A DNA stretch of 64,000 nucleotides from Cucumis sativus (taxonomy: Eukaryota > Streptophyta > Magnoliopsida > Cucurbitales > Cucurbitaceae), in the NCBI RefSeq assembly GCF_000004075.3, contig NC_026660.2, forward strand, positions 26,539,498 to 26,603,497, written 5' to 3'. Under the pieces are notes generated by a model. The model saw only the letters and a list, made by a program, of their open reading frames with translations, was not told the DNA's origin and did no database searches. A program made the translations under genes and the position numbers. Position 1 is the first letter of the stretch. Every line of letters begins with the position of its first letter. Positions 14,307 through 37,032 of the stretch are shown here, in pieces.

Positions 14307-17300
14307 ATGGGAACTCAAGGTCAAACAGGATTAGTAGCACAAAAGAAGATGCACCCTCCTCAGTCCGGAAGATTTGAAGATCGTGAAGATCTTATTAAAT
14401 ATGTTCGCGATTTTGGTGCTGATCAGGGATATGTCGTAACAATTAAGAAGTCTAGGAAAGATAGAAGAGTCATCCTTGGTTGTGATAGAGGAGGTGTGTA
14501 CCGTAACAGGCGTAAGATTGCTGAGAGTCCACGCAAAAGGAAAGCTAGCTCACGCCTGATAAATTGCCCATTTGAAGCAATTGGCAAGAAGGAAGATGAT
14601 GCCTGGATGCTTACCATTAAAAATGGAAGCCATAACCATGAGCCCTTAAAAGATAGGTCAGAGCATCCTTACAGTCGCCGTTTTACAGAGGATGAAGTAA
14701 AGCAAATAAAACTAATGACTGAAGCTGGTATAAAACCACGTCAAGTGCTTAAAGCTCTCAAACAACACAATCCAGATCTGCAGTCAACACCAAGGCATTT
14801 GTATAACCTCAAAGCCAAAATTCGCCAAGGAAATCTATCAGGTTATCACTTGTGTCTACTTTGCTGGGAAAAGATTCACTGCTTGTCAATGTGGGAGACG
14901 TGAAAATAATAATAATAATAATAATGAGATGAAGAGAAATGTAATTCCACAGGCTCTTGATGGAGGTAGCATTGAAACTGAGTCCTAATATTGCTCTATG
15001 CTGGCCTTGTGGTTGGTTTTTAGTTTTTCTTGTCTCCATTTTGATCAAGAATATAGTCCTTGGGTGCATCTTATCTAAATTTGATATCAGAGGAGCAATT
15101 TTTGTTTAATAGGTGGCTAGAGTTCAAGTTCGTAATTCTTTTCAGGATTAATCCTACTACTCCTGTACATCCATTTATGGTTACAAAAATTGGATTGATA
15201 AATGAGAACGTTAAATTTCAGTACTTTTGTGGCGTTTTATAGGCATCAAATTCTAATAGCTGAGTATGGTTGCTTTTCTCAAACTCAAACTCTTAACCAG
15301 ACCAATTTTTTTTTTTCAGATAAGAATTTCAAGTCTTGGAGGCCTAATATTTCCGTTCCTACAAATAGTAGTCATACAGTCGCTGGGGATTCAATCAAGC
15401 AAAATCATCAGCTGGTAAGATCCAATACAAAAGGACAAAAAATGATGTAGATGAGATGTCTGTCCCTATACTCCTATTTGATTGGTTTCAAAGTATATGA
15501 CACATATTTGACTGACCCATAGGTGATAAGTAATTGTTTGAACTGTAGAAGGTTCCTAATTTAATTGGAGGGGAATTTTTGGATTCGCACAACTGTCAAG
15601 TGGTTGATGTTATTAATCCAGTAAGCTCTATTCTTCAGACAACTTATTTGTTCATAAATGGGGGTTTACATGTCAATCATGGTGTGCCCTCTACTTTTGA
15701 GTTAGGCAACACAAGAAGTTGTTTCTCATGTTCCTTTAACAACCTACGAAGAGTTTAAGGCTGCTGTCAATGCAGCCAAACAAGCTTTTCCCTCATGGAG
15801 AAACACACCAATTTATACTCGTCAGTGTGTTATGTTCAAGTTCCAGGAGCTCATCCTCAGGGACATGGTTAGTATCAGTCATGTCTTTTTTAGAATAATT
15901 TGAAATATATAAACCTTGATTTTCTGATATGGCAAGAATTCTTGTTATTAGGATAAGCTTGTAATGAATATTGTTGCAGAACAGGGAAAAACATTAAAGG
16001 ATGCTCAAGATGATATCATCTGTGGTTTAGGTTGGTATATTCACTTATTATATCTTGTTGCAGTATCACATCACGTGATCACATATGAAAAGATTGCACT
16101 CACTTGCCTTCTGTTTTGCCCGAAGAGGTGGTTAAACATGCTTGTCGATTGGCCACTATGCAAATGGGGGAGTTCATCCCTAGTGCATCTGATGGAATTG
16201 ATTCGTACTGCATCCGAGAACCAATAGGTGTGTGTGCTGGGATATGCTCTTTAAACCATCCAGCAACAGTTTCCTTATGGGTATGCCCCTGAGCTTTCTC
16301 TTTGCTTCTATTGACCTTCATTCATATTCCCCACCTCCTTTCTTTATTCAATATTTTTACTTGAAATTTAACCTTTTCATCTGTCCAAGGCCTCCAAAAT
16401 TTTCATTTTGTGCTTTATGAATCGATAAAATTTTAAAAAATGCATTAAATTCCTCAATTATTAGAAACAAAATTCAAAAGTTTTGGAATTAAACTTGTAA
16501 TTTAACCTACAATTTATGTTCTATCATTTTCTTTTATGAACTCTCAAATCTTTGCCTTACATATTTATAAAGGAAACCGGAGTGCAAAGTGCTAAGTATG
16601 TTATCCTTGCCATGCAGATGTTCCCAATTGCAGTTACATGTGGCAATACATTTGTTCTTAAACCATGTGAAACGCACCCGGGTATGTTCTGTTCAGAATC
16701 TATCTTTCTTTTACTTGTAAACGTGATCTATGAAATTCCCACATCAACAGAGATGAATTTTTTTCCTATTAATTTTTATTGCAATCAAATACATTTTTCT
16801 CTTCTCGTTTCCTATATTTGAAAAAAAGTTAGGATAAGGGACAAGTTATCTAATGTGATTCACTATCGGGGATTTGGAAACTCTGATATTTGAATGTTGC
16901 TAGCAACAAAAATCTCCACGAGAGTTCACTTTGACAGTGATGAAACATGGCACACTTCATGTAGAAATCCTTCCGTGTGATGTTATAAATTATACATAGA
17001 TTTTGGTTTAGTTCTTTTGGCTTTTTGACAGTCAACATTAGTCCAGGGGTTATTTAGTGTTGTATTTCTTATTATTTTATAATGAACGGATCTTGCTACA
17101 AAGCTATTATTATTATTATTGTTACTATTTTGAGTAAAAATGCTTTTATTATCCTGCACATCACAGTTTTAGCATATGGTAATATTATCCATTTCAGGGG
17201 CTTCAATGTTGCTAGCTTCATTAGCGATGGAGTCTGGCTTGCCTGATGGTGTTCTGAATATTGTTCATGGATCCCATGTAAGACAGTTCCATGAGAGATA

Positions 17301-20300
17301 TTGTTTCTTTTGATTGGCATCTAAATAGCATATTTCCTGAGTTAATCTTCTGTTATTTTGAATAATATTAACTTTCCCACTTTCGGAGTTTGGAGTTTTC
17401 TACTTCTTTTTTCATTTCACATATCAATGATTTTTTTAATATAAAAAAAAACTGTCAATTAGTACTGGTTCATTATTTAATAGCTAACTGTGCAATTAAA
17501 TTTATTTACTTCCCATGAATATGTTAAGTTATCACCCTAACAATCTAACTTGAACTCTCAAGAACAAAAAGAGCACAAAGAACCCTAAATGATAGAAATA
17601 TATATTGCAATATCAATAAAGAAATTACAGTATACTATAGATTTTTAAGAGGGCTATTGTCTCCCAAATTCCCCAACTGAAAATTCCTGCTAAATTTTTT
17701 ACCCCTTGCGGAAATCCACTTCTATTTATAATTAAAAATCTTAACAAACTTATTAGTTAATTACTAATATGACCCTTTTGATAATCTTAATACTTCCTCA
17801 ACTAAGGGCGTTCTAAAACATCTTTATAAAATAAAAGATTTAACTACCAGACAATAATTCTCTTACGTATCCAAATTTCACATGCGCAATGTCATGCAGT
17901 TTAAACTGTAGACATTTAACTTCCTAATATTTAATCTGCATATCCATAAAACATAACTGGGAGGAAATTGATCTCCTCTTTAGAACTCTTGAAATTTCAT
18001 TGAGTTTTATCTTACTGCAAAATTTAAATAGCAACATGGCTTCCCGATTTTATGTATGGCGTATTATTCAGATCATAAAATGTTTCAAAAAGTTCCATTC
18101 CTAATAAGCAGTAAAATTAATCTTTTGCTATCCATGGTGGCTACCTATCTAGGAATTAATTTCCTATGGGTTTTCTTGACGTCCAAATCTTACACATAAG
18201 TTGGCTCGGACACTCATGGATAAAAAAAAACTTTTGCTATGCCAACTCATGATGGTTGTTCAAAGCTTTTTCTTCTTTCTCAAATTTGTTATATTTTATA
18301 TTTAATTTTCTAATTCTTATTTGTGTGGTAGTGATTTTGAAAATGTTCAAATCATTTTTGTCATGTCTAAAATTACTTCGAAACAAGTTTTGAATCACTT
18401 AAATTAATTTAATATTTGATTCAACACTTTTAGATGCAATTTTCGTGCGATAAAAATTAGTTTTGAATGATTAATATCATGTTTAGTAGTGATTTTGCTA
18501 TGTTCTGATTCATGTTATCTCCATTTTTTGTTTTAAATTCTCTGGTCAGGATATCATCAGCTATATATGTGACGATGAGGACATAAAAGCTGTATCCTTT
18601 TCCAGTTCAAGTTCAGTAAGTGCTTCTCCTTATTAATAGTACATGAAATGCCTAAAAATTGAAAGTTTAGTATGTTTGACGGACCACAATAATATCTATA
18701 AGAGCACGATACATCTCTTATTTATCTGTTCTTTAATTTTATGGATTATTTTTTTCATAACTAACTTTGTGTTCAAATCCTACGACTACTTTTTCTTTAT
18801 GACTAAGACACGTTCCATGTACTTTTCATTCCTGTACATGATTGAAACGAAAATTAACTTGCAAGTTTAGTATTTTTTGGTTGACTATTCTGAATTTTCA
18901 TTGTCTTTTTTTTTACTTTACTGTTTATTTTACTTGAAGGTTGGAAAACACATATATGCTAGGGCTGCTGCTACAGCAAAGAAAGTTCAGGTTTATCCTA
19001 TTTGTTCATTCACTGTTTTGTTCCTTCTGTTAAAAGTGTTACAATTAGGATATTGTATTGAAGAATTTGCATCTATATGTTGATTTCTTAGTCTCATTTT
19101 GGAGGCAAGAGTCATGCAATTATTATGCCTGATGCTAACATGGAGGCTACTTTAAGTGCTCTGGTTGATGCTGGATTGGGTACTGTTGGACGGACATGTA
19201 TGGCTATTGACATCATTGTCTCCGTTGGGAGTTCAACCCTGTGGTATAGTGATTCTTTTGTTTATTGCAATCCTTTTCTTCCTTCTTCTTTCCTTTCCTT
19301 TGGAAGTCTGCTACTTGATTGAGTTCATTATCTCTGGACAATTATAATCAAAATTCACTGTCTTGTGGACACTATTTTATTATCCTTGCAGTACTAGTAA
19401 GTAGTACCTAGTCTTTTTATTCTTGATTTTTTGTTTTCTATTTTGATTTTGAAGTTTAAGATCCTTGAGAAAAGACACATTCTATAAGATTTCCAATATG
19501 GATTTTGTGGTTGCAAGCATAGGCAGATTGATTGGCTTCGTATGATTGAGAGTATGTGTAAGAAGATTAGCTTTCATAAATCCATTACGTCAGTCATAAA
19601 ATGCTGTCGTAGACAGCCAAGTGACACCTAAATCTTTTGCTGCTGCCGTCTGTTTACTTCACAGTATGTGTATTATGAAGATGAGACACATGCATCACAT
19701 TTTTATGCCTCCCAACATTTCTACAAGTATAAAATATGCAACGTATGCACTTTGGCTCCGAACTACATTTGGACTTCTTCCTTCTTTCTACTTGTAGATT
19801 AGCTTTTCACTGAACTTTTGAAAACAACAAAATTAAAAGTTGTTTTTGTAACAGCTTCTCGTTGAGGAAGGGACTTCTTGTCCCTTTGTTAGGTTTTTTT
19901 TTTTTTTTGGAATGAACTGGTTTCTCGGTTGTCATGTCAATGTTTTTGCAGTTAGGGTGCTCCAAATGATTAATTTAAATTTATGAACATATGAGTTTTC
20001 TAGTTATTGGTCCTCTATCATGATTTTCCAGGGAAGAAAAACTTGTGGAATGTGCCAAAGCACTTAAAGTGAATGTGGGAACAGATCCCAATGCTGACCT
20101 TGGTCCTGTAACTACAAAAGAGGTAAGTGTACAGAAAAATTTATTATTAGGTTACGAGATCTATGGTCTATGCACATGTAGAAGATTATTCTTTTGCCTA
20201 TAATCATTTGATAATTTCAGGTGAAGGCTAAACTCTAACTTTAAGTTGGATATCAAACTTTGCCATTAAAGCTGGCAGTTCATTCTTTTGTGAATGTTTT

Positions 20301-23300
20301 GCCGATGTGTTTTCTTCAATTAAAAGTAACTTAATTCCATGTGAGTGTTTTGTTCTTAATGGTCTTGTGACACTCATAACTCTTGTAATAGGTGTATGGG
20401 GATGTTTTATTTATGTATAAGCAGGGACAAAATTGAAGGATTCCCCACACAAGCTACCAGCCAATTTTAGAGGCTTGCTCTCCCAAAAATGCTCCGCTAA
20501 TCCCAAAATAACAGATATCCCACTCTCACGAACTACAAAGGCTACAGAGCGTGTCCACATTTCTAACAAACTCACTTAATTTTTTCTTTTACCCTTTCTA
20601 TTATAACCATCTACCATGGGTGGTTTCACATTGGCCTTCCTAGTATACATATTCACAATAAGAGGCCTAACATCTTGTTCTCTCTCAAAACAATTACAAT
20701 AAACCATTACCGTCTGTACGTTTAGTGGGACATTCATGTCTTTATGTTACTATGCACAATAATATTCAACTATTAAATTAATTCTCGGAAAAATATTCCA
20801 CAGGTGAAAAATCGTTTTTGTAAATTAATTCAAAGTGGCATTGAAGATGGTGCTAGACTTTTGCTAGACGGTAGAGATATCGTGGTACTGATTTGTTATT
20901 ATTCCGAGTTTGTTAAATAAATTCTTGTTATTATCTTTTACTAAAATCTAATGATCCTGCTTTTCATTAATAAACAATAGAACTTTTGGACGTTTCTAAG
21001 TTTTTTTGCAACATTTTGTAGGTCTCAGGATATGAAAATGGAAATTTTATCGGCCCAACCATTTTATCAGGTGTAACAACTGACATGGCGTGCTACAAGG
21101 TACTCTTGTCTTTTTCTATTGAAATGTTGTCAATACTTTGACAGCATTCATTTGCACATTAATTTTAATGACAATAATTTGCGTCGACAGGAAGAATTTT
21201 TTGGACCAGTTCTCCTTTTTATGCAGGTACTATCCAGTTTTTCATCCAATTGGTAGTATTCGTTGTCTTCATCAGGCTGTCTTACTGTTTTCCTTTGGTT
21301 TTACCGGCAGGCTGACAACCTAGAGGAGGCTATAACCATTGTAAACCGAAACAAGTACTTCTTTTAACTCTAGTAAACTGAGGTGACATTTAGATGGCAT
21401 ACTTTAACCATTATAGTCATTGAGTTGCTGCATTCCGTATACCATTTTACGTTTCTGGTATTCCTTCATCAACTTTGAATTGATCTCTCTATTTTAAAGT
21501 TGTAGTACCTTTCTTTTAAATCTTGGTGTTGGTTCTAGCTTCTTGAAGCTGCTTTCCTTGAAGAAGAAAATTTGTAGACCTTTTTTTTCTTGACTTTTTT
21601 TTTATGATAAGGTGTTACACGTGCAAAATTCTTCCTCCTTAGTCATGACTCCCTGGACATCCTTTGATCTGCTTTCGTCAATTTTTCTGCAGAAACCGAA
21701 ATGGAGCTTCCATATTCACAACTTCTGGCATTTATGCGAGGAAGTTTCAGAGTGAAGTGGAAGTGGGAACGGTTAGTGATCAAATTTATTGGCTCTACAA
21801 ATTTCTTTTTATTTAGATTCGTTTGTTGAACGCCCAAGTAGATAGGTTGAATTTTTTATGTTTTGCTCTGACATGTTTATTATAATGTTGAGTGAAACCT
21901 TTGGCCTTCGAACATTTTCATGGAAGTTCTAAGCTGGGTCTATTTGTCACCAATAACCACATACCTAAGCCTATTTTATTCTATGAATGTTCTCCTAAAT
22001 AGATACTCGTATTTGTTGTTCGTTTCCTATTCATTTTTATTTTCCTTCCTAAATCATTTTCAGGTTGGTATCAATGTTGCTGTTACAGTTCCGTTGCCAT
22101 CTTCCTTTAATGGTTTGAAGCCAACTTCTGCTGTTGATCAAGTTCTTTTTCAGTTCAACTTTTCATCCTCTTAATGCCTCGTTTCCGTCTTGCAATACTA
22201 TCCTTCATTTCTTTTTGCTCTCACTTTCTCCTCTCCGTCTGGTTTGTAATTTGAAGATAAGGTAGGGCTGGAGTTTTACACCCAATTGAAGAGAGTGGCT
22301 CAACAGTGGAAGAACTCACCAAGTATTGGCGTCTCAATGGCGGTGCCTTCACCATCTGAGAGACATTTGAGATCCCGTGCTGCACCTTCCATGTTGGTTT
22401 CAACATCTGAGAAAGATTCACCTGGTATGAAGCACAGGAGTTTACCTCCGTTGCCTTCCACATCTGACAGGGATTCACCCAGCGTCCCTGTACTTCTGCC
22501 GAACCCTCGAATAACTCCGACAGGCTTAACTAATGAAAGATCCACTTCCTCTCCGCCGACTCCTGATAGGAATTTGCACGGACTCTCCCTGATTTCTACC
22601 TTATCATCGGAGGGGGATGTATCCAACCAAGATTTGTCTCCTGCAATGCTTTCACAGCGTGATAGAGATTTACCTGGTCAAGCTATGTCAATGGCAACAT
22701 CCAGATCATCTGATAGACTGTACATACCTCAGAAATCTCATTGGAATGAAACCCCGAGGGCTGATTCAATTCCATCCAGTTCCGAGAGGATCCATGCGTC
22801 TTTTTCGCAGACAAGCAGCATCAAAGGACAGGCATGTCGAACAACTCATCCTGCTTTGGTTTTAGCCACAGAGAGGGGGTTATATGTGCCAACATCTCAT
22901 GACGCTATTTGTCTAATTAACCATGGAAATGATAGCACCAGTCCGTCTCGAAGAATGAACACCATGTGTCAATCATCAGAACGAGTATACATGCTAGCAA
23001 CTTCTCATCTGAACGACAGTATGGGTCAAACATTGGAGAGAACTGATACCTCCTTGTTTCCTTCTTCAGAGAGGCATTATGCGCCTCCCTCTTCTGATGG
23101 AAATGACCACATCAGCTTAGCCTCTCATACAGATGTCACTTTGCAATCAACCTCAGATAGAATGTTTCTGTCTAGTTTGTCTGAAAGGGACGATAATATG
23201 GCTTCCACTGCTTCCCAACAAGGTGAATCTTTAACATCCACTTCAGAGAGAATGTATAGACCTCCATTGGTTCATAGAAATGCAGGTATGGCACCGAAAT

Positions 23301-23428
23301 CGGAATGGTTATGCATTCCCACGCCTGCTGGAACTCAGAGAATGTACACACAAGATCCAATGGTTTCAGCAGATGAATTTCAATGCCAAGGAGCATCATT
23401 GACATTGCCTGCATCGCAAAGAATGTAA
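14307..23428 (+). CDS. FAR1-type DNA-binding domain fused to ALDH6 (methylmalonate-semialdehyde dehydrogenase-like) with Ser-rich repeat tail, 19 exons
   Basis: Exons: 14307-14841, 15320-15414, 15549-15620, 15706-15867, 15952-16030, 16126-16280, 16618-16681, 17198-17277, 18550-18615, 18940-18990, 19092-19243, 20032-20122, 20804-20884, 21022-21099, 21191-21226, 21311-21354, 21693-21771, 22064-22141 (end uncertain) and 22262-23428. They stay in phase and predict about 1054 residues. Residues 1-178 carry a FAR1/WRKY-GCM1 zinc module (C59, C87, H109, H111) and a basic PRKRK patch, suggesting nuclear DNA binding. Residues about 211-680 follow the ALDH6 fold, which normally oxidises methylmalonate semialdehyde in mitochondria. 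Catalytic-type N358 and C489 remain, but the cofactor loop usually written FVGSN reads FSSSSSVG at 431-438, and the usual GQRCMA reads GRTCMA. No mitochondrial presequence is visible. The last about 370 residues are a degenerate Ser-(Glu/Asp)-Arg repeat tail. I recall similar fused models in other plants but could not check. The fusion rests on one continuous phase-compatible exon chain; two adjacent genes remain possible. Confidence 0.75.
17520..18540. other. Long intron 8 of the FAR1-ALDH6 gene
   Basis: This 1.27-kb intron (17278-18549) is the longest of the ALDH6 part. Its middle (about 17.52-17.85 kb) differs in texture from the flanks and could be an old insertion, but no terminal repeats or coding remnants were recognised. 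Intron 12 holds a comparable odd patch at about 20.39-20.75 kb. Confidence 0.3.
22350..23428 (+). repeat. Degenerate tandem peptide-coding repeat, tail of the ALDH6 fusion
   Basis: The last exon encodes about 18 loose copies of a Ser-rich motif, roughly S-T/S-S-E/D-R followed by a few residues and often Pro. Examples are PSPSERH, STSEKDSPG, STSDRDSPS, SSDRLYIPQKSH, SSERVYMLATSH, SSERHYAPP, STSDRMFL, STSERMYRPP and the final ASQRM. Spacing is irregular, about 15-30 residues. The region is predicted to be disordered. A duplicate of this exon near 34.0 kb lacks almost exactly this block. Confidence 0.75.
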
Positions 23429-24606
23429 GGGATATTATTTTAGAAATAGAACATTAGCATCTAGGAATAGGATTAGCCAAATTCTCATAATTTTTTTCCT
23501 TTGTCAACACAACAAATTACTAATGTCTTTTTTTATTATTATTATTATTATTTTTCTTAGAGTCATTAGCTTGATTTTGTTCCTGTTTTCCTAGAACTGT
23601 GGCTATTAGTATATGTTAAGATTTTTGAAAATAAATTTACGTCTCAATGAACCTTCTTTTCTATTGTGTTTGAAAAAATATTTACATGCACAATGTGTGT
23701 TTATTTGACGGAAAATTATAATTATTATTTTATCAATTTTTTTTAAAAATAACTTGAAATCAACAAAAGCAAATTTGCGAAAATAAGTTTTGGCTTAAAT
23801 GAAATCACTATGTTGGCTTGACTATGAAGTCTATTATTTAAGTTTCCACTCTATTATACTAAAAAATAAAAAGAAGGAGAAAAGGATCTAACTAAATTTA
23901 GACTTTGAAAGTAGAATATCTTGATATTATAAATTAAAAATGAGTGGTTGTGGTCGTGCATGTGAAAAATTTCAAAACTAGGCAACTATGAAGTATGCAC
24001 CCTTTAATTTTATTCCGAACGAAAACTATTGCCAAACTTTATTCTAAAAAAAAATTATAACACTCAAGTTATTCTTTTTTATTTATTGCTTCAACAGATT
24101 TTCTACTTACACCGGGAAAAAATATCATGTTGCTCACCCTTTAGCAATTCTCTACGAAAAATCAAAATTTGCAGGGTTGACTATCATAATGTTAACCAAT
24201 ATTGCATCTTTTATTGTTGTATCAAACTTGAAACAAGTTTAAATGAAAGAGCAATGATCATGTATTATTAAAAAAGAACAATCAGATTTTTATATCAAAC
24301 TTCAATCACATGTGTTCTTCACTTCTCTCAAAATAATAATAATAACAGCAACTTTTTATTTAAAAAAAAAAAGTGCCACGTGTGGCAGCATTTTTTAACT
24401 CACACTTCAGCAACTTTTCTCTAAATGAAAATATGAAAACAGTAGCAACTGCATCTCAACTTACACTTTCTTTTTCTTTTTATTTTTCCTACTACACACA
24501 TTAAAAGACAAATCCATGTGACTCAAAATATAAACAATCAATTTTATTACACAATCAATAAGATTGATTGTATTACACACTCTAATGTTCTGAAATTCAT
24601 AGTTAA
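23429..24606. other. Convergent intergenic region between the ALDH6 fusion and the first UGT
   Basis: It holds the 3' ends of two convergent genes. It contains an (ATT)n run near 23.53 kb and AT-rich sequence, and most of it recurs at about 34.10-35.56 kb in the duplicated block. Relative to that copy, about 190 bases after 23.60 kb appear to be missing here. No gene is seen. Confidence 0.6.
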
Positions 24607-26013
24607 TTAATGATCCTGCTCATCAACATTGTTTCTATGCTTCTTTAGATAGCTCAAAAACCCATCAATTAACTTCTCATCTCTTTCTTTGTTCACAAAC
24701 AAATCCTTCATCTCTCTTATTCTCTCTCTATAAACCTTACCTTCTTCCTCCACCATTACCAACTTCAATGATTCGGCCACTGAGTCCCTCGTAAACGAAC
24801 CATCCAATTCGCTCCTTGGAACGCAGTAACCCATCTTCTTCTCTTCCAACACTCTCGCAATGATTCCTTGGTCCGCCACAAAAGACAGTAACACCAACGC
24901 TCTTTCACTCTGAATCGCTTCCACAACAGAGCTCCAACCAGAGTGTGTCAAAAACCCACCCACCGACTCATGCCCCAATATCTTCAACTGCGGCGCCCAA
25001 GTGGTGCACACAACACCCCGCCCTTTGGTTCGTTCCTCAAATCCCTCGGGCAGCTCAATCGGTTCAGGGTCAGATAGTCCGAGCCGTGTCCTTAAAACCC
25101 AAAAAAACGAAAACCTCGATTGTTCCAACCCCAAAGCGATCTCTGTTAGTTCGTGTTGACTAGGTTTGGCCTCACTCCCGAATGCCACGTAGACCACAGA
25201 ACCTTTAGCTTGTTTGTCCAGCCACTCTTTAATGGACTGCCACGTTGGATTGTCCTCCTTCAGATCGTACTCCGACGTGGGTAGTTGACCAACTGGTAAA
25301 ACGGTTTTATGGTGTATATCTTCAAGCAGTTGAATCCACTCCGGTTCGAATTCAGGGAAGGCTCTCACAACCACTAAATCGCTGTAGTGAGCACTCATTT
25401 TAAAGCGATCTATATCGGTAACTCCGGTGGCATTACCTGCTACAAAGTCGAAAATCTTCTTAATTTCAAAGTGACGAAATGCTACGGTAGTGGGGAAAGG
25501 GATCCAGTCGGGAGGAACCGTAAAATCCTCCAGTTTCATGCGACTGTCCCCTGACATGGGACCGACGAATGCAAGAGATTGGAGAATAAAGATGCTGAAA
25601 AAAGCAGTCTTAATCCGGAGATTGGGTCCGATCTCTTGACCAACCCAATAGGGAGCAAAGTCGTACAAGATCCAATCTGCATCGGAAGTTTGAAGAAAGT
25701 CAGAGAGGGGTTGTTTGAGGGCGTCGAAGGCTTCTTTGAGAAACTGAACTTTGTCGTAAGGGAGATCGGATGTGGCCTCTGCGTCGGGAGGCAGAGTATG
25801 GAGTTGAGGCAGAGGAATTTTGACGAAGCTGAGAAAAGGAGATAAATGAGGAGGGAGTTGTGTTGGGAGACGGTCGATGTTTTTGGGGGTGGAAACGAAG
25901 GAGACTCGGTGACCCTTTTGAGCAATGAGTTTGGAGAGCTCAAGATAAGGAATCATATGGCCGAAAGCTAGCCATGGGAACATTACTATATGGAGCTTCT
26001 TGTCGACGGCCAT
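24607..26013 (-). CDS. UGT91-family glycosyltransferase, copy A, 468 aa, intronless, intact
   Basis: GT1-fold UDP-sugar transferase. Family members add a second sugar (often rhamnose or glucose) to a glycoside such as a flavonoid, steroid or terpenoid; the substrate here cannot be read from sequence. The predicted catalytic pair is H19 (in WLAFGHMIP) and D118 (in WILYDFAPYW). The PSPG nucleotide-sugar box spans residues 339-382, starts WAPQLKILGHES and ends at Q382. Its usual HCGWNS core reads HSGWSS (357-362). There is no signal peptide or membrane segment, so the protein is probably cytosolic. Length is normal. It is nearly identical to the copy at 35.6 kb, including about 350 bases of 3' flank, so it is a young duplicate. 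Similarity to other copies upstream of the start ends only about 50 bases out, so the promoter differs from that of its relatives. Confidence 0.93.
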   Translation of the reverse strand: MAVDKKLHIVMFPWLAFGHMIPYLELSKLIAQKGHRVSFVSTPKNIDRLPTQLPPHLSPFLSFVKIPLPQLHTLPPDAEATSDLPYDKVQFLKEAFDALKQPLSDFLQTSDADWILYDFAPYWVGQEIGPNLRIKTAFFSIFILQSLAFVGPMSGDSRMKLEDFTVPPDWIPFPTTVAFRHFEIKKIFDFVAGNATGVTDIDRFKMSAHYSDLVVVRAFPEFEPEWIQLLEDIHHKTVLPVGQLPTSEYDLKEDNPTWQSIKEWLDKQAKGSVVYVAFGSEAKPSQHELTEIALGLEQSRFSFFWVLRTRLGLSDPEPIELPEGFEERTKGRGVVCTTWAPQLKILGHESVGGFLTHSGWSSVVEAIQSERALVLLSFVADQGIIARVLEEKKMGYCVPRSELDGSFTRDSVAESLKLVMVEEEGKVYRERIREMKDLFVNKERDEKLIDGFLSYLKKHRNNVDEQDH

Positions 26014-26443
26014 GGTAGTCTGTGAGGAGGGAGGTGGTTGCTTTGATGGTTGTGCAAAATGTAATAAAAGAATTCCTTTTGATGTTCGAAGTTTGAGATT
26101 TACATCTAATTTAATTTATCTAAGTTTCAAAGAACATTTTAGCTCATACATACAAAATCCTTATTCGTATCCTTATCTTTTTATATATTAAAAGTGGTTC
26201 ATGAAACAATTATTTTTGGACTATTCTAATTTGTCAAATTCTAATATTGTAAAAATTTTAATTATTATTTTTATTTATAATTATTCAATTAATATAAAAT
26301 ATAATTATTATTAACCAATTATAATATTGGAAAATTATACAGGGATAATTACTAAAATACCCATACGTCCATGTGTCAAGACCTTTTTTTAAAAAAAATT
26401 ATCTATATTTTCTTTCTTTCAAAATTATATATATATATAAAAT
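26014..26443. other. 5' flank of UGT copy A
   Basis: Up to about 26062 this matches the 5' flank of copy C. Beyond that point the match stops and AT-rich unique sequence follows. A TATATAA-like motif on the minus strand lies at about 26182-26188, roughly 170 bases from the start codon, farther than in the sister copies. Its use as a promoter is unproven. Confidence 0.5.
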
Positions 26444-33388: not shown

Positions 33389-34235
33389 AATCTGCAGAAA
33401 CCGAAATGGAGCTTCCATATTCACAACTTCTGGCATTTAATTTATGCGAGGAAGTTTCGGAGTGAAGTGGAAACGGGAATGGATAGTGATCATATTTATT
33501 GGCTCTACAAATTTCAATACATTTAGATTCGTTTGTTGACGCCCAAGTAGATAGCTAAGTTGAGTGAAACCTTTGGACTTCGAACATTTTCATGGAAGTT
33601 CTAATCTGGGCCTATTTGTCACCAAAAACCACATACCTAGGCCTATTTTATTCTAAGAATGTTATCCCAAATAGAGATTCATATTTGTTGTTCGTTTCCT
33701 CTTCATTTTTATGTTTCTTCCTAAATCACTTTCAGGTTCGTATCAATGTTCCTGTTACACAGTTCCGTTGCCATCTTCCTTTAATGGTCTGAAGCCAACT
33801 TCTGCTGTTGATCAAGTTCTTTTTCAGTTCAACTTTTCATCCTCTTAATGCCTCCTTTCCGTCTTGCAATATTGTCCTTCATTTCTTTTTTCTCTCACTT
33901 TCTCCTCTCATCATCTGGTTTGTAATTTGAAAATAGGGTAGGTTTGGAGTTTTACACCCAATTGAAAAGAGTGGCTCATGTCAACAGTGGAAGAACTCAC
34001 CAAGTATTGGCGTCTCAATGGCGGTGCCTTCACCATCTGAGAGCATCATTGACATTGCCTGCATTGCAAAGAATGTAAGGATATTATTTTCGAAATAGAA
34101 CATTAGCATCTAGGAATAGGGGTAGGCAAATTCTCATAATTTTTTTCCTTTGTCAACACAACAAATTACTAACCATTTATTTTTTATTTCTCTTAGAACC
34201 ATTAGCTTGATTTTGTTCCTGTTTTTGTAGAACTG
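33389..34235 (+). pseudogene. Fragment of the FAR1-ALDH6 fusion gene (last three exons)
   Basis: A partial copy of 21.69-23.6 kb: exon 17 (from TCTGCAGAAACCGAAATGG), intron, exon 18 and the first and last parts of exon 19. Similarity starts within a few bases of the exon 17 acceptor. A 5-base insertion disrupts exon 17 (GCATTTAATTTATGCG against GCATTTATGCG), and the exon 17 donor reads GGATAG where the parent has GGTTAG. The repeat-coding part of exon 19 is absent: CCATCTGAGAG joins directly to CATCATTGACATTGCC, a loss equal to parent positions 22363-23393 (1031 bases) at a GAG microhomology. No upstream exons are present, so it is non-functional as an ALDH. Confidence 0.9.
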
Positions 34236-35560
34236 AAGAGTTGTTCAGCAGCAATTGCTTCTCAGACTATATTGGATTAGCTGTATTTATTTTCAAAAAA
34301 TCGATATGGGTGAAGTTTTGAACATGGGTAATTCCAAGAATGCAAAAGTTTTTCCTCCTTAATTTGGGTTGGTATGGTTTGAGACTTCTTAATTTAGTAC
34401 GCAATATAAAATCTTAAATTTTTTATTTACTATTAGTTTATGTTAAGATTTTTTAAATAAATTTAGGTTTCAGAGCCTTCTTTTCTACTGAGTTTGAAAA
34501 AAAAATTTACATGCATAATGTATCTTTATTTGAACGAAAGTTATCATTATTATTCTATCAATTTTTAAAAAAATTACTTTAAACAAAAAAAAAAAGCGAA
34601 TTTGATAAAATAATATGTATGTGGTATTGATCAATAAGTCTACTACTTAAATTTCCACTATATTATACTAAAAAGAAGGAAAAAAAGGAAAAAAAAAAGG
34701 AAAAAAGATTTAACTAAATTTAGACTTTTTAAAAGTAGAGTATCATGAACCTTATGAATTAAAAATGAATTAAAAATGAGTGGTTGTCCTTATGAATGCA
34801 AAAAAATTAAAAACTAGTAAAATATGAAGTATGCGTCCATTAATTTTATTTAAAACCAAAACTATTGCCAAACTTTATGTTTTAAAAAAAATTATATGTT
34901 CTTTTTATATTCTCTTAACGATAAGTGGACACAGAATTAAACTTTTGATCTTTAGAGAAGAATATTAAGTTATTTTTAATTGTGCTTACTTTGTTTTGAT
35001 ATCAAACAATTATTTCTAACACCTCGACCAGTTTATGTTATTTGGCTTCATCAGATTTTCTATTTATACAAGGAAAAAAATGATGTACCCTTTAGCAATT
35101 CATAATAGGAAAATCAAAATATGCAGGGTTGATTATGACAATGTTAACTAATGTTGCATCTTTTATTGTTGTATCAAACTTCAAACAAGTTTTGAAGTTT
35201 AAATGAAAGAGCAATGATCATGTATTATTAAAAAAGAACAGTCAGATTTTTATATCAAACTTCAATCACATGTGTTCTTCACTTCTCTCAAAATAATAAT
35301 AATAATAACAGCAACTTTTTATTTTTAAAAAAAAAGTGCCACGTGTGGCAGCATTTTTTAACTCACACTTTAGCAACTTTTCTCTAAATGAAAATATGAA
35401 AACTGCGTCTCAACTTACACTTTCTTTTTCTTTTTATTTTTCCTACTACACACATTAAAAGACAAATCCATGTGACTCAAAATATAAACAATCAATTTTA
35501 TTACACAATCAATAAGATTGATTGTATTACACACTCTAATGTTCTGAAATTCATAGTTAA
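34236..35560. other. Duplicated intergenic region between the ALDH6 fragment and UGT copy C
   Basis: It matches 23.6-24.6 kb closely, increasingly so toward the UGT. It keeps about 193 bases (34236-34428) that the parent region lacks; these may be original ALDH6 3' UTR. Purine-rich A/G stretches occur near 34.67-34.71 kb. No gene is seen. Confidence 0.6.
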
Positions 35561-36969
35561 TTAATGATCCTGCTCATCAACATTGTTTCTATGCTTCTTT
35601 AGATAGCTCAAAAACCCATCAATTAACTTCTCATCTCTTTCTTTGTTCACAAACAAATCCTTCATCTCTCTTATTCTCTCTCTATAAACCTTACCTTCTT
35701 CCTCCACCATTACCAACTTCAATGATTCGGCCACTGAGTCCCTCGTAAACGAACCATCCAATTCGCTCCTTGGAACGCAGTAACCCATCTTCTTCTCTTC
35801 CAACACTCTCGCAATGATTCCTTGGTCCGCCACAAAAGACAGTAACACCAACGCTCTTTCACTCTGAATCGCTTCCACAACAGAGCTCCAACCAGAGTGT
35901 GTCAAAAACCCACCCACCGACTCATGCCCCAATATCTTCAACTGCGGCGCCCAAGTGGTGCACACAACACCCCGCCCTTTGGTTCGTTCCTCGAATCCCT
36001 CGGGCAGCTCAATCGGTTCAGGGTCAGATAGTCCGAGCCGTGTCCTTAAAACCCAAAAAAACGAAAACCTCGATTGTTCCAACCCCAAAGCGATCTCTGT
36101 TAGTTCGTGTTGATTAGGTTTGGCCTCACTCCCGAATGCCACGTAGACCACAGAACCTTTAGCTTGTTTGTCCAGCCACTCTTTAATGGACTGCCACGTT
36201 GGATTGTCTTCCTTCAAATCGTACTCCGACGTAGGTAGTTGACCAACTGGTAAAACGGTTTTATGGTGTATATCTTCAAGCAGTTGAATCCACTCCGGTT
36301 CGAATTCAGGGAAGGCTCTCACAACCACTAAATCGCTGTAGTGAGCACTCATTTTCAAGCGATCAATATCGGTAACTCCGGTGGTATTACCAGCTACGAA
36401 GTCGAAAAGCTTTTTAATTTCGAAGTGACGAAATGCTACGGTAGTGGGGAAAGGGATCCAGTCGGGAGGAACCGTAAAATCCTCCAGTTTCATGCGACTG
36501 TCCCCTGACATGGGACCGACGAATGCGAGAGATTGGAGAATAAAGATGGTGAAGAAAGCTGTCTTAATCCGGAGATTGGGTCCGATCTCTTGACCAACCC
36601 AATAGGGAGCAAAGTCGTACAAGATCCAATCTGCATCGGAAGTTTGAAGAAAGTCAGAGAGGGGTTGTTTGAGGGCGTCGAAGGCTTTTTTGAGAAACTG
36701 AACTTTGTCGTAAGGGAGATCGGATGTGGCCTCTTGCGTCGGGGAGGCAGATTATGGAGTTGAGGCAGAGGAATTTTGACGAAGCTGAGAAAAGGAGATA
36801 GATGAGGAGGGAGTTGTGTTGGGAGACGGTCGATGTTTTTGGGGGTGGAAACGAAGGAGACTCGGTGACCCTTTTGAGCAATGAGTTTGGAGAGCTCAAG
36901 ATAAGGAATCATATGGCCGAAAGCTAGCCATGGGAACATTACTATATGGAGATTCTTGTCGACGGACAT
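35561..36969 (-). pseudogene. UGT91-family glycosyltransferase copy C, broken by a 2-nt frameshift
   Basis: Nearly identical to copy A over its whole length and into both flanks. Compared with copy A it has two single-base additions at about 36734 (CTCTTGCG against CTCTGCG) and 36741-36744 (GGGG against GGG). Together they shift the frame after about residue 76 (PQLHNLPP), so the N-terminal part and the 353-residue C-terminal part lie in different frames. The rest is well kept, including the PSPG box with HSGWSS, so the break is recent. It keeps the promoter-proximal module shared with copies D, E and F. An assembly or base-call error is possible, because both additions lie close together. 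Confidence 0.85.
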
Positions 36970-37032
36970 GGTAGTCTGTGAAGAGGCGGGAGGTGCTTGG
37001 TTTGATGGTGGTGCAAAATGTAAGTAAAGTTA

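Follow-up and report, generated by a model that had tools for sequence, protein, structure and literature searches.

The 64,000-nucleotide stretch of cucumber (Cucumis sativus) DNA that was analysed here, referred to as the window, raises the question of whether a DNA-binding module of transposase type, an enzyme domain of the ALDH6 family and a Ser-rich tail belong to a single gene, and whether the product is still a metabolic enzyme. The first-pass annotation had proposed one such unit and had suggested that its product could be a metabolite-sensing nuclear factor.

Gene Model and Exon Structure

Positions 14307-23428 of the window were read as one gene on the + strand, with 19 coding exons and a product of 1046 aa. 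No stop interrupted the frame between the ATG at 14307 and the stop codon ending at 23428, and all 18 introns were of the GT-AG type and in phase. The features of the gene are given below, where the C7 paralogue is the second ALDH6 gene described in the next section.

14307..14841, + strand: coding exon 1, starting with the ATG at 14307; 178 aa plus one base
14842..15319, + strand: intron 1, phase 1, the putative site of the exon swap; exons 1 and 2 of the C7 paralogue are likewise separated by a phase-1 intron
15320..15414, + strand: coding exon 2, 95 nt, apparently a degenerate former presequence exon that now forms a linker (DKNFKSWRPNISVP...)
15549..15620, + strand: coding exon 3, joined to exon 2 in phase 0
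15549..21771, + strand: coding exons 3-17, the ALDH6 domain; 15 exons with the lengths and phases of the C7 paralogue
22064..22112, + strand: coding exon 18, 49 nt, compared with 91 nt in the C7 paralogue
22257..23428, + strand: coding exon 19, 1172 nt; the last ALDH6 residues, then a Ser/Pro/Thr-rich tail, with the stop codon at its end

Exon 1 was joined to exon 2 in phase 1 (14841/15320) and exon 2 to exon 3 in phase 0 (15414/15549). Both splice joins had been called in phase by the first-pass annotation, and their coordinates were exact, with the frame open throughout. Its description of a single unit with a DNA-binding module, an ALDH6 domain and a Ser-rich tail was borne out by one continuous frame of 19 exons. 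The transcript is presumably spliced as modelled, and the fused architecture is, judging from the sequence, very likely real.

The C7 Paralogue and the Probable Origin of the Join

The genome (226.6 Mb in 88 contigs, with the fused gene on contig C6) was searched with the ALDH part of the fused gene. A second ALDH6 gene was found on contig C7, with 19 exons and 537 aa, which is also the published length of the ordinary melon protein CmALDH6B2. The ends of C7 exons 3-17 were initially placed by the exon lengths of the fused gene and then checked for splice sites; each exon end so placed lay between AG and GT, apart from one GC donor, and no stop occurred in the whole reading. The acceptor of C7 exon 2 was picked by hand because the preceding acceptor led to a stop. 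The exon lengths (nt, fused gene/C7 paralogue) were as follows.

Exons 1-7: 535/25, 95/95, 72/72, 162/162, 79/79, 155/155, 64/64
Exons 8-13: 80/80, 66/66, 51/51, 152/152, 91/91, 81/81
Exons 14-19: 78/78, 36/36, 44/44, 79/79, 49/91, 1172/113

The 16 consecutive exons 2-17 were equal in length and phase in the two genes, an agreement far beyond chance, and the differences were confined to exons 1, 18 and 19. C7 exon 1 (25 nt) encodes MLQSSIWR and C7 exon 2 (95 nt) encodes VKKLSVLRPQIF...; judged by eye, the product of these two exons looks like a mitochondrial presequence. Exon 2 of the fused gene was identical to C7 exon 2 at 44 of 95 nt in an ungapped comparison, a value reached by none of 5000 shuffles. 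The gapped score of the same pair was 59, and the best of 1000 shuffles gave 37. By alignment, no mitochondrial presequence was found in the fused protein; the first presequence exon was replaced and the second was degenerate.

It seems that, at the N-terminal end, the 25-nt exon alone gave way to a new exon, which is 535 nt long and has the same end phase. Since the homology of exon 2 to the presequence exon of the C7 gene has survived, exon shuffling at a phase-1 intron seems the likely source of the join. The main argument for a real join, and against a gene-finder error, is that the DNA-binding exon occupies the place of the old first exon.

Changes in the ALDH6 Domain

The ALDH part of the fused gene scored 389.9 bits against PF00171. 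Against TIGR01722, the model of the CoA-acylating methylmalonate-semialdehyde dehydrogenase (MMSDH), the fused protein scored 551.5 bits (cut-off 448.5) and the C7 paralogue 729.4 bits. The two proteins shared identical residues at 306 of 479 aligned positions. The conserved set was defined as the 214 columns common to the chain of 8xxq, which we take to be human ALDH6A1, and to 95% or more of a set of 80 relatives from bacteria. These were the best 80 of 595 and mostly came from Pseudomonas; one of them (L100) was kept although its translation contained a stop, and the C7 protein was used only after position 40. The fused protein was changed in 60 of the 214 columns (including 8 gaps; the changed columns close to the C-terminal loss are alignment-dependent), whereas the C7 paralogue was changed in 17.

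The substitutions R312C and R488T of the fused protein occurred in columns that were invariant in the comparison set. These residues presumably correspond to R124 and R301, the arginine pair to which the substrate carboxylate binds. The NAD loop carried V432S and G433S, with the loss of the Rossmann-loop Gly; Q487R and the change of MGAKN to FGGKS were also observed, and much of the block FFSFTGSKASFAGDLNFYG was missing. The catalytic Cys489, Asn358 and Lys381 and the motif EEFFGP were present. The segment HFGGKSH of the fused protein and NMGAKNH of the C7 paralogue lie at what we take to be the usual place of the ALDH general-base Glu, which was absent. According to the accessible parts of the ALDH papers on common bean and potato, ALDH6 proteins lack this Glu.

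When the 8xxq chain was used as an outgroup, 68 unique changes fell on the branch of the fused gene and 25 on that of the C7 gene; four rows of the bacterial set of 80, taken as outgroups, gave counts of 69-83 and 21-23, respectively. The branch of the fused gene is the faster-changing of the two. In exons 3-17, dN was 0.220 and dS was 1.400 (NG86), values that point to selection on the paralogue pair taken together, whatever its distribution over the two branches.

The first-pass annotation had called the ALDH part a metabolic dehydrogenase. This label fits poorly with 60 of 214 conserved columns changed, compared with 17 of 214 in the paralogue, the two presumed substrate-binding arginines being among them. 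A bifunctional or relocated enzyme may still be considered, in which the ALDH6 domain would act on an aldehyde, possibly a different one, and the DNA-binding module would bring it to chromatin, with acyl-CoA or NADH made locally. Retained MMSDH activity is possible because the ALDH part passes the TIGR01722 model, and the preservation of Cys489, Asn358 and Lys381, together with the excess of dS over dN between the paralogues, agrees with an enzyme of this kind. However, both presumed substrate arginines, the Rossmann-loop Gly and the C-terminal block were changed or missing, and such a relocated enzyme is considered unlikely. The ALDH part is probably a changed protein that is no longer an MMSDH, and not the remnant of a dead gene.

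The Putative DNA-Binding Module of Exon 1

Exon 1 scored 26.1 bits against the Pfam family AFT (PF08731; cut-off 21.6) and 22.4 bits against FAR1 (PF03101; cut-off 28.1). The corresponding scores of the whole fused protein were 22.0 bits for AFT and 18.2 bits for FAR1. Hence, the term "FAR1-type" that was first given to the module holds at the superfamily level only, because the AFT cut-off was passed and the FAR1 cut-off was missed; an assignment to FAR1 itself was not upheld. A search of the genome with PF03101 listed 23 places, none of which was inside the window. When the whole protein was scanned against Pfam at E <= 10, only Aldedh, AFT and FAR1 were listed, and MULE and SWIM domains were absent.

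The sole sequence match of exon 1 in the PDB at E <= 10 was AFT2 (4lmg), a weak one (E 0.0016, 21.9 bits). The zinc-ligand candidates C59, C87, H109 and H111 were aligned with Cys and His residues of AFT2, and their pattern would suit a WRKY-GCM1-type finger with C-C-H-H ligands. Exon 1 also contained a basic stretch (RNRRK...PRKRK), with basic runs at 68-79. The AlphaFold model of exon 1, made without an alignment, was of low confidence (mean pLDDT 62.1, pTM 0.38), and in its order of strands and helices a three-helix part was predicted after the zinc finger and the basic stretch. When this fold was compared with the PDB by Foldseek, 317 matches reached E <= 10; the best had E 0.46, so that no match passed E <= 0.001. 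No zinc finger of the WRKY-GCM1 kind was recognised among the 50 matches listed, and only the order of strands and helices was taken from the model as support.

Exon 1, when searched against the genome, had four matches, namely exon 1 itself, a stretch with 30% identity at C6:30554948-30555424 and two weaker ones. In the C6:30554948-30555424 stretch (L040 3446-3991), AFT ranked over FAR1, as in exon 1 of the fused gene. This finger exon lay downstream of an AMP-binding-like stretch (PF00501, 18.8 bits, under the cut-off of 29.9). A scan of viral contigs with exon 1 matched 43 stretches, none of which was a relative.

Judging from its domain class and its helical part, the module of exon 1 would derive from a Mutator-type transposase. 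The fused product may bind DNA through its zinc finger.

Long ALDH6 Proteins in Other Plants

Published tables of ALDH genes, as far as they were accessible, list long ALDH6 proteins for melon, grape, poplar and cotton, i.e., for 4 of the 10 further plants compared. The melon protein CmALDH6B1 (MELO3C007705) has 1043 aa and 19 exons, and it is the sole member of the 17 melon ALDHs with a predicted nuclear location; its reported expression was low in all organs, with an RT-qPCR peak at 6 h of NaCl. The grape protein VvALDH6B7 has 1031 aa. In poplar, PtALDH6B7 (958 aa) and PtALDH6B5 (713 aa) are both predicted to be nuclear and form a pair with a Ka/Ks of 0.116; several short poplar ALDHs have the same predicted location. 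The cotton pair GhALDH6B3A/D (1072/1134 aa) is predicted to be nuclear and has a Ka/Ks of 0.44, which is among the higher values of the table rows covered.

The same kind of published table gave no long ALDH6 in the other six plants, i.e., soybean, common bean, potato, Arabidopsis, licorice and tomato (the last without a length). The largest ALDH listed has 756 aa in soybean, 720 aa in common bean, 717 aa in potato and 726 aa in Arabidopsis. Potato ALDH6B2 is listed with 88 aa, the licorice ALDH6 proteins with 510 and 483 aa, and tomato with one ALDH6 of mitochondrial location. In the tables there is also a class of ALDH6 genes of middle length (571-825 aa), which in grape and poplar are reported as tandem neighbours of the ordinary gene; the cotton gene of this class has a gene number and position neighbouring those of the ordinary gene.

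The words "FAR1" and "DNA-binding" do not occur in the main text of any of the four ALDH papers (melon, grape, poplar and cotton), and the long relatives were for this reason likened to the fused gene solely by length, by exon structure and by the compartment predicted for them. On this likeness, as given in the published tables for the four plants, the conserved architecture that had been suggested for other eudicots is likely. The architecture is probably conserved in several rosid orders. No account of a FAR1/AFT finger joined to an ALDH6 domain was found in the literature searched, which lay largely outside subscription journals.

Intron 1 and the Proposed Single Transcription Unit

Exon 1 read through into intron 1 met a stop at 14901-14903. 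Moreover, an in-frame ATG was found at 15202 within intron 1, from which a stop-free reading (15202-15414) ran into exon 2; it is a possible alternative start, and the earlier statement that no new start lay between the two parts was not strictly correct. No Met is encoded by exons 2 and 3 of the fused gene. These features leave room for two transcription units, i.e., a short DNA-binding protein ending at about 14.9 kb and an ALDH-like protein with a promoter of its own, for example with the ATG at 15202 as the start of an ALDH-only product, and the joined model would then be an artefact. However, intron 1 has the phase and the place of the corresponding intron in the C7 gene, and exon 2 is homologous to C7 exon 2. 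Positions 14842-15319 were free of AATAAA, ATTAAA and AATGAA, with only one AATATA and an AATAAT run, and the published melon model of 1043 aa likewise comprises 19 exons. Two separate units are thus regarded as improbable.

Exon 18, the Ser-Rich Tail and the Partial Duplicate

In the DNA alignment of the two genes, no GT of the fused gene stood opposite the donor GT of C7 exon 18, and the likeness to C7 exon 18 continued past the putative donor at 22112 into former coding sequence. Exon 18 appears to use an upstream GT (ATG/gtttga) after the loss of the old donor. This upstream GT keeps the phase, and 14 residues of the conserved C-terminal block are removed in frame.

Exon 19 was open over 390 codons. 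None of 20,000 first-order Markov simulations of this stretch was open, and the mean number of stops was 18.2. The tail contained 67 Ser, 34 Pro and 31 Thr among 371 residues, and the motif S-E/D-R recurred in it. A protein search with the tail found only the tail itself in the genome. The tail might have arisen through successive duplications of the C-terminal peptide of ALDH6. The tail may be a regulatory region, which is probably disordered. The ALDH6 C-terminal peptide VSMAVPSPSER was seen to resemble later units of the tail.

A partial duplicate lay farther downstream in the window.

33391..34235, + strand: broken copy of the 3' end of the fused gene, beginning just before exon 17 and lacking the Ser-rich tail

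This copy is not part of the working gene and travelled with a neighbouring UGT-like gene, which was named by eye from its ORF. The duplicated blocks were 21686-26070 and 33391-37029, with 95.7% identity over 2 kb. By eye, the exon-19 acceptor was no longer present in the copy, and a small insertion had been added.

That the fused gene is itself a decaying pseudogene, an ALDH6 copy losing its function with the long model spanning relics, could be argued from the 60 changed columns, the lost exon-18 donor, the weak published expression of its melon counterpart by length and the tabulated cotton Ka/Ks, but it is very improbable in view of 1046 codons without a stop or frameshift, a last exon whose openness no simulation reproduced, the long ALDH6 proteins tabulated for melon, grape, poplar and cotton, and the contrast with the 33391-34235 copy, where decay is indeed seen.

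Proposed Origin and Function

Starting from the open gene structure, the paralogy, the exon-2 homology and the residue losses demonstrated in the DNA, the fused gene was interpreted, with a probability of about 0.62, as a real gene, i.e., an ALDH6 duplicate with a Mutator-type finger exon swapped in, whose product would be nuclear and DNA-binding and would use the ALDH fold as a scaffold and not as an MMSDH. The product is most likely a conserved nuclear DNA-binding protein that is an MMSDH no more.

In a duplicate of the nuclear gene for the mitochondrial ALDH6 (MMSDH), the first coding exon (25 nt), with which the presequence began, would have been lost. A recombination event in the phase-1 intron would have supplied a substitute exon for the DNA-binding N-terminus of a transposase of Mutator type, with an AFT/FAR1-like finger and a helical part. 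Exon 2 would then have decayed into a linker, the shifted splice donor of exon 18 would have removed the C-terminal block of the ALDH fold, and the last exon would have grown into the Ser-rich tail. The product may be nuclear and bind DNA via its zinc finger, and the ALDH6 fold may serve as an oligomerising scaffold that possibly binds NAD or CoA.

A metabolite-sensing role, as first suggested, is possible for the fused protein in view of its domain content. A wider proposal is that such proteins are rosid-wide nuclear regulators, in which exon shuffling joined a mitochondrial enzyme of amino-acid breakdown to the zinc finger of a domesticated transposase; the captured ALDH6 fold, now lacking its substrate arginines, would be an oligomeric scaffold that reads the NAD, CoA or acyl-CoA state and tunes DNA binding, and the tail would be controlled by phosphorylation; this proposal is tentative and, for the present, doubtful.

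If the preferred reading is true, the genes filed as methylmalonate-semialdehyde dehydrogenase include nuclear DNA-binding proteins that no longer carry out that reaction, and pathway counts and stress-expression papers may misread such genes because of this filing. The locus would likewise be a clear example of a mitochondrial enzyme made into a nuclear factor through exon shuffling, in which the former presequence exon can still be seen as a fossil. Furthermore, it would offer a handle on a possible link between amino-acid breakdown and gene control in plants.

Comparison with Known Systems

The best Pfam family of exon 1 was that of AFT2, an iron-regulated activator with an AFT/WRKY-GCM1 zinc finger. 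To our knowledge, AFT proteins have no ALDH domain. FHY3/FAR1 and MUG are described, in the parts of the literature that were accessible, as transposase-derived plant proteins with a WRKY-GCM1 domain, and the FHY3 family as transcription factors. Unlike FHY3/FAR1 (FRS) and MUG, the fused protein had no MULE or SWIM domain, and its FAR1 score was under the Pfam cut-off. Melon CmALDH6B1, grape VvALDH6B7, poplar PtALDH6B7 and cotton GhALDH6B3A/D are long as well and are treated as ALDHs in the published tables; they are likened to the fused protein by length, exons and compartment. A further related system was the plant mitochondrial ALDH6B2/MMSDH (the C7 gene; melon CmALDH6B2), with the same 19-exon skeleton and with C7 exons 2-17 equal in length and phase. 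Compared with it, the fused protein lacked the start of the presequence and had the DNA-binding exon 1 instead, and it carried R312C, R488T and G433S, the loss of 14 C-terminal residues and a Ser-rich tail of about 370 aa.
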